From Candidatus Niyogibacteria bacterium (GTDB lineage Bacteria; Patescibacteriota; Minisyncoccia; JACROR01): a stretch of 54,318 nucleotides of DNA. This document shows, in pieces, positions 71-53,507 of the stretch; position 1 is the first letter of the stretch; each line of letters opens with the position of its first letter. The notes beneath the pieces were generated by a model. That model was not told where the DNA came from. It did no database searches and saw nothing but the letters and a program-made list of their open reading frames with translations. Location: the NCBI GenBank assembly GCA_016186495.1, contig JACPLO010000012.1, positions 1-54,318 on the forward strand, in the 5' to 3' direction. The position numbers and the translations under genes are program-made.

Positions 71-607
71 TAACAAATGCTGTTTACAAGACAGCTTAGT
101 CCCCTCGGATTAATTTCCGAGGATAAAAAACTTGGCTATATCGGGGAAACTCTCCTGAAAATTTTATGGAGACAATCCCGAGGGAAGGAGGAGATAATTA
201 TGGCTGAAGGCAAAGGTAAAAAGATTTCACAATTAAAAAAGGCATTAGAGGAGCATGATAAAGAAATAAAAGAAGAAGAATATAATTGGAGAGAAATTAA
301 ATTAGAATTTGGAGTAGAAATTGTTGTTCCGGCATATCCAAAACATTTACAAAGAAAGGCAACGATTGATTCCGAATTCATAAAAAAAATCAGAAAAATT
401 ATTTCCTAACCCGTAGAGACTATACGCCAGGAGGTTAATAGATGGGCGGCGAGAATTAAAAACTTTTCCGCCCGTCAATATTTAATCTATGATATAGTCC
501 GAACTCTGTGGCGACATAGAGAGGTAAACAGAAATGTTTTACCCGCATTATTGTAATTTCATTAGAAATTGAAAATTAGAAATTACAATTTTGCAGCAAC
601 AAAATTG
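71..607 (+). ncRNA. group I intron in 16S rRNA, at about E. coli position 788
   Basis: The 537 bases interrupt GGAT|TAGATACCC of 16S rRNA. All four conserved group I core elements are visible in order: P (ATCGGGGAAAC, about 140-150), Q (ACAATCCCGAGGGAAG, about 172-187), R (GTAGAGACTATACG, about 413-426) and S (GATATAGTCC, 491-500). R and S pair as P7 (GACTAT with ATAGTC). The upstream exon end GGAT can pair with GTCC at about 109-112 as P1, with the usual G-U at the splice site, and the intron ends in G607. A 69-residue ORF lies between Q and R, in a P6-type loop. Near the 3' end (about 552-589) is an A+T-rich inverted repeat. Introns in 16S genes are known from Candidate Phyla Radiation bacteria. 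Boundaries could shift by one or two bases. Confidence 0.9.
200..409 (+). CDS. intron-encoded small charged protein (69 aa), function unknown
   Basis: The ORF begins at ATG 200 behind one of the few strong Shine-Dalgarno sites of the window (AAGGAGGAGATAATT). An open frame continues upstream to 77, but that part holds the folded intron core, so the internal ATG is preferred. The product is rich in Lys and Glu, has an N-terminal helical charged stretch (residues about 1-30), a short hydrophobic patch (FGVEIVVPAYP, about 38-48) and a basic C-terminus. No LAGLIDADG, GIY-YIG or HNH motif is visible and it is far shorter than typical homing endonucleases. It could be a remnant of one, an RNA-binding splicing helper, or an unrelated small protein carried in a peripheral loop. 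I do not recognise the family. Confidence 0.55.
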   Translation: MAEGKGKKISQLKKALEEHDKEIKEEEYNWREIKLEFGVEIVVPAYPKHLQRKATIDSEFIKKIRKIIS

Positions 608-1339
<732 letters not shown>

Positions 1340-1352
1340 AAGAGATTTATCC

Positions 1353-33293: not shown

Positions 33294-33320
33294 AATGTTT
33301 TTATTTAGTTTAAAATTTGT

Positions 33321-33352
33321 ATTTTCATTTTCGATATATCGAAAATGAAAAT
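33321..33352. repeat. 32-bp perfect palindrome between nusB/Nudix and rnc
   Basis: ATTTTCATTTTCGATA is followed directly by its exact reverse complement. There is no spacer and no T-tract, so it is an unlikely simple terminator; a dimeric repressor site or an RNase III substrate is possible. Confidence 0.85.
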
Positions 33353-33376
33353 TATTTATAATACTTAATTTAGAAT

Positions 33377-38588: not shown

Positions 38589-40361
38589 ATGGCATTAAAA
38601 AATAACAAAATTATTGAAACTAAACGGCATTCGCTGGCGCATCTTTTAGCCATGGCCGTCCAAGGAAAACATCCTGACATAAAATTCGGCATCGGGCCGA
38701 TAATTGAAAACGGATTTTATTATGATTTTGATTTTTCAAAAATCGGCCATTCTCCTTCCCAAGATTGCCTGCCAAAACTGGAAAAAGAAATGCGCGAATT
38801 GATAAAAAAAGGCGTCAAATTTGAACGTCAAGAAATCAGCGCGAAAGAAGTAAAAAAGATATTCGCCAACCAGTCTTTCAAACTTGAACTTATCAATGAA
38901 TTTAAAAAAACCGGAGAAAAAATTTTAATTTATAAATCAGGAAATTTCATTGATCTCTGCGCCGGACCGCACGTGAAATCAACCAAAGAAATAAACGCTG
39001 AAGCGTTCAAACTGGTTAAAATTGCCGGCGCTTATTGGAAAGGAAGCGAGAAAAATCCAATGCTCCAAAGAATTTACGGCGTGGCTTTTGAAACAAAAAA
39101 AGATCTTCAGGATTATCTTAACCTCTTGGCCGAAGCGGAAAAAAGAGACCATCGAAAAATCGGCAAAGACCTTGATTTATTTATTTCAAGCGATTTGGTC
39201 GGAAAAGGTTTGCCTCTTTGGACCGAAAAAGGCGCGATCATCCGGCGCGAAATAGAAAAATTCATCGTTGACGAAGAAATAAAACGCGATTATCGGCATG
39301 TCATCACTCCCGATATCGCCAATGTCCGGCTTTACGAAATTTCCGGCCATTATCCTTATTATAAAGATATTATGTACCCGGCCATGGAAATTGACGGAGA
39401 AAAATTGATTCTGCGGCCAATGAGCTGTCCTCATCATTTTACGCTTTATCAGGATAAAATCAGAAGCTATAAAGAATTGCCGCTTAAAATCGCCGAACTG
39501 GCCAAACTCTACCGTTATGAAAAATCCGGCGAACTGACCGGCTTAATCAGAGTCCGAAGTTTTTGTCTGGCTGATTCCCATATTTTTTCCGCCGAAGAAC
39601 AGGCGGAAACCGTCATCAACGAAGTTTTGGATTTAATAGAATACGCCAACGGCGTCCTGGGTTTTAAAAAAGGCAAGGATTATGTTTATCGGCTTTCGCT
39701 TGGCGACAGAAAAAACGCTGAAAAATATTTTAAAAACGACAAAGCTTGGGTAGCAGGAGAAAAAACTCTGCGGTCGGTTCTGAAAAAACGCCGGGAAAAT
39801 TTTATTGAAGCAAAAGGAGAGGCTGCTTTTTACGGCCCTAAAATTGATATCCAGATGAAAAACATTTTAGGAAAAGAAGAAACCGCTTTCACCGTTCAAT
39901 ATGATTTTTGCCTGCCGGAACGTTTTAAGCTCCGCTATATCGGCAAGGACGGAAAAGAAAAACAGCCGATCGTCATTCACCGCTCTTCGGTCGGAGCCAT
40001 TGAAAGAACTATTGCTTTTTTAATAGAGAAATATGCCGGCGCTTTGCCTCTCTGGCTTTCGCCGATTCAAACAACCGTCATTCCTATAAGCGAGAAATCT
40101 GAAAAATACGGCGAAAAAGTTTTAGCCGAATTAAAAAAAAATAATATCCGGGCGGAATTGGCGGCCACCGGCGAAACATTAGGCAAGCGAATCCGCGAAG
40201 CGGAACTTTTAAAAATTCCTTATATTCTGATTGCCGGCGAAAAAGAAATCAAAAATAATTCCGTTAATGTCCGCCATTACAAACGCGGCCAAGAAGGAGA
40301 AATTAAAATTGAAAAATTGATTAAAAAAATAAAAAAAGAAATTGAAAATAAAATAATTTAA
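38589..40361 (+). CDS. thrS: threonyl-tRNA synthetase lacking the TGS domain
   Basis: The 590-residue protein starts directly at the editing domain (ETKRHSLAHLLAMAV, then FIDLCAGPHV), so the N-terminal TGS domain of about 60 residues found in E. coli ThrRS is absent. The class II core is complete: zinc-binding MSCPHHFTLY, motif 2 around YRYEKSGELTGLIRVRSF, motif 3 VIHRSSVGAIERTIAF and the C-terminal anticodon domain. It follows dnaE closely and is probably co-transcribed. Confidence 0.95.
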   Translation: MALKNNKIIETKRHSLAHLLAMAVQGKHPDIKFGIGPIIENGFYYDFDFSKIGHSPSQDCLPKLEKEMRELIKKGVKFERQEISAKEVKKIFANQSFKLELINEFKKTGEKILIYKSGNFIDLCAGPHVKSTKEINAEAFKLVKIAGAYWKGSEKNPMLQRIYGVAFETKKDLQDYLNLLAEAEKRDHRKIGKDLDLFISSDLVGKGLPLWTEKGAIIRREIEKFIVDEEIKRDYRHVITPDIANVRLYEISGHYPYYKDIMYPAMEIDGEKLILRPMSCPHHFTLYQDKIRSYKELPLKIAELAKLYRYEKSGELTGLIRVRSFCLADSHIFSAEEQAETVINEVLDLIEYANGVLGFKKGKDYVYRLSLGDRKNAEKYFKNDKAWVAGEKTLRSVLKKRRENFIEAKGEAAFYGPKIDIQMKNILGKEETAFTVQYDFCLPERFKLRYIGKDGKEKQPIVIHRSSVGAIERTIAFLIEKYAGALPLWLSPIQTTVIPISEKSEKYGEKVLAELKKNNIRAELAATGETLGKRIREAELLKIPYILIAGEKEIKNNSVNVRHYKRGQEGEIKIEKLIKKIKKEIENKII

Positions 40362-40371
40362 AATAAAAATA

Positions 40372-40394
40372 CCGTAAAAAGAATCTTTTTACGG
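40372..40394 (-). terminator. terminator of the candidate RNA, also after thrS
   Basis: CCGTAAAAA (40372-40380) pairs with TTTTTACGG (40386-40394) around GAATC. On the minus strand it is followed by TATTTTTATTTT; on the plus strand the T-run is weaker. Confidence 0.75.
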
Positions 40395-40576
40395 ATTTAG
40401 ATTTTTACTGTTTAATTCAGGATAAGCGCACTGACTGTAAATTTTTGGTCAATGCGCTCCCCTAGAGAGTTTGCTTCTTTGTTTTGACTTCGACTCAGAA
40501 TTATTTTGACTAGCAAACTCTCACTTTCTAATTTTTAAAATACATCCTGCCTGGCTATTTTTACCCTATTTTTACT

Positions 40577-40606
40577 TTATAAACTTTTTCCTTCACTTTC
40601 ACTCAT
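40577..40606 (-). CDS. possible nine-residue leader peptide
   Basis: ATG 40606 is preceded by AAAGGAGGTGAATAA, the strongest Shine-Dalgarno site in the window, and encodes MSESEGKSL then TAA. Such a short ORF with such a site, ahead of two hairpins, suggests a translated leader or a dual RNA. It may also be chance. Confidence 0.35.
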   Translation of the reverse strand: MSESEGKSL

Positions 40607-40661
40607 TTATTCACCTCCTTTCTTTTCTTTCTATAACCAATATTAATCTATATTAAAAAAT

Positions 40662-41999
40662 TTGTCAAGACATCAAACTTATTATCTCAAAACTTTCGGC
40701 TGCCAGAGTAATTTAGCGGATTCAAACCGAATCCGCTGGATTTTGGAATCTTGCGGTTATCAAAACGCCGCCAAAGAGGATGGCGCGGATTTAATTATTT
40801 ATAATACCTGTTCAGTGCGCGAATCTGCGGAAAACCGCGTTTTTGGCCGGAATAAAATCCTGAAAAAAATCAAAGAAAAAAATCCCCGCCTTAAAACAAT
40901 TCTGACCGGCTGTATGACGCACTACCGGAAAGATATTTTGAAAAAACGGCTTCCTTACATAGATTATTTCCTTCCCATAAAAGACATTGCTTCCCTGCCG
41001 GAAAAAATCGGTTCCCCGCTGAAAATAACCGCTGAAGAATATTTAAGCATTCCGCCGAAAACAGATTCTTCTTTCCGCGCCTTGATTCCGGTTTCTTACG
41101 GCTGTAATAATTTTTGCGCTTACTGCGTCGTGCCGTTTGCCCGCGGCCGCGAATATTCGCGGCCGGCCAAAGAAATTCTGGCCGAAGCAAAAAAATCCGT
41201 TAAAAACGGCGCGAAAGAAATCTGGCTTCTGGGCCAAAACGTCAATTCCTACGGCCTGACTGAAAAAACAGCTTGGGAAGGTAAAACCAAATCAGGTGAA
41301 AAACCGAAAATAAAAAAAGGCTGCATGACGTTCGCTAATCTTCTTCGCGCGGTTAATAAAATTCCGGGAAATTTCTGGATCCGTTTTACTTCCGCCCATC
41401 CCAAAGATTTTTCCGATGATCTTATTAAAGCTATGGCAAAATGCGAAAAATTTCCAAAATATCTGAATTTGCCGGTCCAATCCGGCGACGATGAAGTGCT
41501 AAAGCGGATGAACCGGCAATATACCAGAAAACATTTCATAAAACTGGTTAAAAAAATTCGCCGCCGCGTTCCGGAAATCGCCATTTCCACCGATACCATC
41601 GTGGGTTTTTGCGGCGAAACCGAAAAAGAATTTTCAAACACCCTGAAACTTTACCGCGAACTTAAATTTGATATGGCTTTTATCGCCGAATATTCTCCCC
41701 GGCCGAATACCGCTTCCGCTCTGGCTTTTAAAGATAATATCACTCATCAAGCAAAAGAAAGGCGCCGGAAAAAACTTAACGAAATTTTAAAAAAAACCGC
41801 GGCAAAAAACAGCAAAAAATTGCTTGGCAAAATTTTACCGGTTCTGATTGACGAGAAAAAAAACGGCCGTTTTTTCGGCAAAAGCCCTCAAAATAAGACA
41901 GTTGAAATTGTAAATTCCCGAAAACAAAAAATCGGAGATTTCAGCAAAGTAAAAATCATTAAAATAGGCCCTTGGATGTTGGAAGGAAAATTAATTTAA
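40662..41999 (+). CDS. miaB: tRNA-2-methylthio-N6-isopentenyladenosine methylthiotransferase
   Basis: A radical-SAM methylthiotransferase of 445 residues. The N-terminal MTTase domain has YYLKTFGCQSNLADSNRI and YNTCSVRESAENRVFG with two cluster Cys, and a third Cys in LTGCMTHYRK. The radical-SAM motif is YGCNNFCAYCVVPFARG (CxxxCxxC). NTCSVRE favours MiaB over MtaB or RimO. A TRAM domain closes the protein. The start is TTG 40662, with TATATT seven bases upstream and no Shine-Dalgarno site, so a leaderless mRNA is likely. The same bases hold the -35 of the opposite-strand RNA unit. Confidence 0.92.
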   Translation: MSRHQTYYLKTFGCQSNLADSNRIRWILESCGYQNAAKEDGADLIIYNTCSVRESAENRVFGRNKILKKIKEKNPRLKTILTGCMTHYRKDILKKRLPYIDYFLPIKDIASLPEKIGSPLKITAEEYLSIPPKTDSSFRALIPVSYGCNNFCAYCVVPFARGREYSRPAKEILAEAKKSVKNGAKEIWLLGQNVNSYGLTEKTAWEGKTKSGEKPKIKKGCMTFANLLRAVNKIPGNFWIRFTSAHPKDFSDDLIKAMAKCEKFPKYLNLPVQSGDDEVLKRMNRQYTRKHFIKLVKKIRRRVPEIAISTDTIVGFCGETEKEFSNTLKLYRELKFDMAFIAEYSPRPNTASALAFKDNITHQAKERRRKKLNEILKKTAAKNSKKLLGKILPVLIDEKKNGRFFGKSPQNKTVEIVNSRKQKIGDFSKVKIIKIGPWMLEGKLI

Positions 42000-53385: not shown

Positions 53386-53502
53386 CCCGTTAGAAATAGG
53401 ACGCGGACGCCAAAAGAGCTGCGCGTTTTCCTTTATTGCTTATAAATTTATGTTTCATTAACATTATATTTTAATTACGCGTCCGCGATTTCTAACGGGA
53501 TT
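53383..53502. repeat. palindromic NPVR/SNG element, copy E, intergenic
   Basis: Perfect 14-bp inverted repeats ATCCCGTTAGAAAT (53384-53397) and ATTTCTAACGGGAT (53488-53501), extended inside by CGCGGACGC/GCGTCCGCG. The span is 120 bases, again divisible by three, but the frame has stops here. It fills the gap between the two surface-protein genes and donates the ATG of the LamG gene. TATAAT lies inside it on the minus strand. Confidence 0.88.
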
Positions 53503-53507
53503 CATAT

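Follow-up and report, generated by a model that had tools for sequence, protein, structure and literature searches.

A plausible lineage-specific minus-strand small-RNA gene in the thrS-miaB gap of a Patescibacteria-type genome

The genes thrS and miaB are separated by a gap of 300 nt, and the question raised by this locus is what that gap holds. The window analysed here, a stretch of 54,318 nt, is one contig of a 654-kb genome of 12 contigs, and its ThrS finds its best matches among Patescibacteria (Parcubacteria-type) genomes. The first-pass annotation had proposed a new structured RNA in the gap, read from the minus strand as TTGACA-N17-TAATAT, a strong Shine-Dalgarno (SD) site, a nine-codon ORF, two hairpins, and a terminator. 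All of these elements were confirmed to be present (Table 1). What the gap holds looks like a complete small-RNA gene, giving a plausible but unproven lineage-specific RNA.

Table 1. Window coordinates of the two flanking genes and of the minus-strand elements at their junction.
Feature	Position	Strand	Remarks
thrS	38589-40361	+	
miaB	40662-41999	+	
Promoter TTGACA-N17-TAATAT	40640..40668	-	-35 hexamer overlaps miaB codons 1-3
-35 TTGACA	40668-40663	-	followed by a 17-nt spacer
-10 TAATAT	40645-40640	-	
Predicted transcription start	40632..40634	-	placed by its distance to the -10
Shine-Dalgarno AAAGGAGGTGA	40621-40611	-	predicted unpaired; four bases, then ATG
Nine-codon ORF (MSESEGKSL + stop)	40606-40577	-	ATG at 40606
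Hairpin 1	40522-40465	-	11-bp perfect stem, 36-nt loop
Hairpin 2	40459-40424	-	11 pairs including one internal U-G (12 with outer G-U), 12-nt loop
Intrinsic terminator	40358..40394	-	10-pair stem 40394-40372, then U-tract TATTTTTATTTT; bidirectional

The promoter, SD, start codon, ORF, hairpins, and terminator follow one another in the correct order and with correct spacing. A purine-rich leader lies between TAATAT and AAAGGAGGTGA. The SD had a mean paired probability of 0.05, and the ribosome binding site of the short ORF is thus predicted to be accessible. A promoter scan of 6 kb returned 16 sites against 12.6 expected, so the promoter match alone means little; only five places in the window, however, combine an exact TTGACA with an acceptable -10. 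At the other end, the terminator stem was computed to be functional on both strands and may therefore also end thrS, and the U-tract is better on the minus than on the plus strand. Downstream of the candidate RNA the minus strand carries no gene, and the next gene, thrS, is convergent on the opposite strand, which bears out the first-pass statement that no protein gene except the end of thrS follows in this direction. At the sequence level, the locus shows the features of an independent transcription unit (promoter, terminator, and nothing downstream). Beyond the nine codons there is no substantial continuation of the reading frame, no coding remnant was detected in any frame, and the longest open stretches gave no Pfam match. 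This result indicates that the element does not look like a coding gene; it also makes a frameshifted pseudogene less likely. The RNA itself is the likely product.

The stems of the two hairpins had mean pair probabilities of 0.989 and 0.997. Hairpin 1 had been described as a perfect stem of 10 bp, and our recount gave 11 perfect pairs. The strand-specific G-U pair described for hairpin 2 held, as the plus strand has an A·C mismatch where the minus strand has the U·G pair. Among 1000 dinucleotide shuffles of the intergenic region, none contained even one such 11-bp Watson-Crick stem, and none (0/1000) contained two disjoint 11-pair stems. The hairpin region was strongly structured (z about -5.6). 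The predicted minus-strand RNA folded better than 200 of 200 shuffles (z -4.2); the plus strand also folded better than 200 of 200 (z -5.9) and was at least as strong, so the strand cannot be read from the fold by itself. In favour of the minus strand are the promoter, the SD, the U-tract, and one U-G pair. Strongly negative z values on both strands were observed in 4 of the 15 window gaps of at least 80 nt, namely the thrS-miaB gap and those at 1346-1782, 33294-33376, and 53386-53507. Strong intergenic inverted repeats or folds were also noted at 1714-1759, 2579-2649, and 53386-53507 of the window, and a promoter-like site at 2579 (plus strand, TTGACA-N17-TATTAT) has a terminator-like hairpin within about 10 nt downstream.

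The strong SD had been called striking in a genome that hardly uses such sites. This holds for the window, where an SD-like core is missing from 39 of the 44 ORFs that are 100 aa or longer and AAGGAGG was found in only one, and fails genome-wide, where AGGAGG-N3-9-ATG occurs 83 times versus 15 for the reversed control pattern (about 70 pairs above control). Strong SDs therefore serve a minority of genes, and the SD of the candidate RNA is not unique. Judged by eye from their sequences, the strongly SD-led genes include secreted proteins, short peptides, and pyrE-like genes. The genome holds 13 AAGGAGGTG sites, most of which precede a start codon at SD distance, indicating that the motif marks real or former translation starts. 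Several starts in the window have TATAAT-like boxes just upstream of the ATG, which suggests leaderless mRNAs.

Other short SD-led ORFs were noted in the same genome. ORFs of 56 and 40 codons on contig C6 (L133 and L134, about 15.1-15.5 kb) and contig C3 (L132, about 21.9 kb) look, by eye, like precursors of modified peptides (RiPPs), and one of them adjoins a 320-aa ORF that could, also by eye, be a maturation enzyme. On contig C10 (L139, about 27.7 kb), the eight-codon SD-led ORF MNLILSLF lies directly 5' of another strong SD and start and is leader-peptide-like.

A single 16S rRNA was detected in the genome, and it ends in GGTCGTGGAGTTTCTCTTTT, without CCTCC. Its 3' end lies in the window at 1288-1345 (plus strand; GGAGTTTCTCTTTT) and thus has no CCUCC anti-SD. 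By our own count, 18 of 29 readable 16S ends from this genome and its relatives (L142-L171) are without CCTCC. The SD of the candidate RNA pairs weakly with the 16S tail of its own host (-6.4 kcal/mol), compared with -22.2 kcal/mol for a canonical tail. Amin et al. 2018 (PMC6107228) report that, as a rule, SD motifs are missing too where an organism has no anti-SD. The present genome is an apparent exception to this rule, with strong SDs kept and the matching 16S sequence absent. The 16S gene also carries an intron-like insertion (window about 140-640, plus strand) with SD-led short ORFs (a 69-aa ORF near 202 and MGGEN near 442).

The search for known families and relatives gave the following. 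The Rfam search proposed in the first-pass annotation placed no Rfam 15 family above its gathering cut-off on the candidate RNA; only rRNA and tRNAs matched in the window, and at E 10 the matches near the candidate were far below gathering scores. BLAST against 55 genomes, the window's own included, found no homologue. Its six weak matches were rejected as homologues, being SD sites of ordinary genes, lysine-rich coding sequence, and AT-rich stretches. In one relative (G031), a similar promoter-SD module (CTTGACAAATTTTTTAA ... AAAGGAGG) was observed ahead of an ordinary ORF. A covariance model of the two hairpins, made from one sequence and so sensitive only to fairly or moderately close relatives, matched only the window itself in 384 genomes of the class and 380 of the phylum, two samples that overlap. 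Phages and plasmids gave no match to the candidate RNA, viral contigs searched for the exact stems contained none, and the search for a second copy in the genome itself returned only the self-palindrome of the terminator. As no homologues were found, there was no alignment and hence no covariation.

G001, the only genome of the same family that was compared, has thrS adjoining miaB with about 80 nt between them, which hold only a terminator-like hairpin. Lack of conserved stems in relatives with this gene order had been named in the first-pass annotation as evidence against its proposal; G001 provides such evidence in part, though as a distant relative (ThrS 49% identical, MiaB 66%). In other genomes, the regions preceding miaB or following thrS (L015, L029, L058, and L099-L105) showed short gaps or terminator hairpins and no similar element. 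As far as can be seen, the element is lineage-specific. The proposal of a new structured RNA is only partly supported. A complete minus-strand unit with structure beyond chance is present, but a new structured RNA calls for conservation or covariation, and the relatives searched yielded no homologue that could show either.

We tentatively explain the locus as a lineage-specific minus-strand small-RNA gene of about 265-275 nt with a sigma-70-type promoter, a leader ORF, and an intrinsic terminator, a reading to which we give a little less than an even chance. Transcription would run from the RNA's own promoter to the intrinsic terminator. A ribosome would enter at the unstructured purine-rich 5' end and translate the nine-codon peptide, and the two very stable hairpins would be the functional or stability part of the RNA body. 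Most likely the RNA would act as a small RNA of the leader-ORF ('dual-function') type, whose 5' segment, when bound by a ribosome, would load the transcript and protect it, while pairing with other RNAs would fall to the exposed loops and A-rich linkers. Searches of the genome found neither Hfq nor CsrA, and a base-pairing role, if there is one, would have to do without both. An Hfq-dependent small RNA was rejected on this ground, as was a CsrA sponge RNA (CsrB/RsmY type), which several GGA motifs had brought into consideration.

As the -35 hexamer lies on the first miaB codons, transcription of the candidate RNA should compete with miaB initiation in cis. The miaB start is probably the TTG at 40662, with a TATATT 7 nt upstream (window 40649-40664, plus strand). 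This TATATT (40649-40654) falls within the spacer that separates the -35 and -10 of the RNA and is placed right for a near-leaderless miaB start. The miaB message is probably near-leaderless, and its promoter would overlap that of the candidate RNA. If both promoters are real, they would be mutually exclusive, a simple cis link to miaB.

Two observations suggest that the candidate RNA may have been acquired recently: the sister genus lacks it, and it has a canonical SD in a host whose 16S carries no matching anti-SD. The same two observations also fit the strongest rival, a decayed imported small gene. Here a short gene (for a small peptide, or a leader with its gene) would have arrived by horizontal transfer, kept its promoter, SD, and start codon, and lost its coding part down to the nine codons that remain. 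Strong SDs mark a minority gene set that includes short peptide genes (L132, L133) with the same promoter-SD-ORF-terminator layout, and this agrees with such an origin. However, no frame holds a coding remnant, promoter and terminator are intact, and random decay does not predict so structured a hairpin region. We consider the remnant unlikely, though it keeps an appreciable chance. Acquisition also enters a further reading, of very slight probability, in which an acquired or newly arisen ribosome-binding RNA sits in a host whose 16S has lost the anti-SD. Initiation at its SD would follow a non-canonical route that also serves the several dozen other strongly SD-led genes, and the RNA would regulate translation through that route.

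The strand is the point at issue in another explanation, according to which the hairpins act on the plus strand (as thrS terminator and mRNA 3' end or stability element, or as miaB leader) and the signals on the minus strand arose by coincidence or reflect weak antisense noise. The bidirectional terminator stem, the plus-strand fold of equal or greater strength, and the terminator hairpin ahead of miaB in the sister genus (G001) and other relatives are consistent with this. It would, however, leave three minus-strand features all to chance, namely the TTGACA promoter, the perfect SD, and the usual spacing of its ATG, and both the A-C mismatch of hairpin 2 on the plus strand and the better U-tract on the minus strand point the other way; we regard it as rather improbable. 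If instead the peptide is what matters, either the nine-codon product or that of an overlapping 13-codon GTG frame would be functional and the hairpins would only stabilise the message. The strong, accessible SD and the other short SD-led ORFs of the genome agree with this, but nine codons are extremely short and the peptide has neither a homologue nor a recognised type, which leaves such a gene only a small chance. The least probable of the readings is that the RNA belongs to a known class (e.g. 6S or another housekeeping RNA) but has diverged too far for the Rfam models to recognise it. Patescibacterial RNAs are often divergent, but no such family appeared even at E 10, and the side-by-side hairpins with a translated-looking 5' end are unlike the layouts of 6S, tmRNA, RNase P, and SRP RNA.

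If expressed, the candidate would add a small RNA gene to a streamlined Patescibacteria-type genome; our literature search turned up no small-RNA studies on this group. It also draws attention to the strong SD sites retained despite a 16S rRNA without the matching sequence, which merit separate study.

Compared with known systems, the order SD, tiny ORF, hairpins, terminator resembles that of leader-peptide attenuators. Unlike in these, no regulated gene follows on the same strand, thrS being convergent, and MSESEGKSL contains no run of one amino acid; an attenuator was rejected on the missing downstream gene. With the short peptide genes L132 and L133 of the same genome the candidate shares the AAAGGAGGTGA-type module, promoter-like sites, and terminator-like hairpins, whereas their ORFs have 40 and 56 codons and the candidate has nine codons and two strong hairpins. 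SR1, SgrS/SgrT, and RNAIII/hld are dual-function bacterial small RNAs with a short ORF. The candidate, known from sequence alone, differs from them in its ORF of only nine codons and in having no homologues, no Hfq found, and no known target. It resembles them in its own promoter, an SD and short ORF on the 5' side, a structured body, an intrinsic terminator, and no downstream gene. It is a good candidate for an orphan small RNA of a known general kind.
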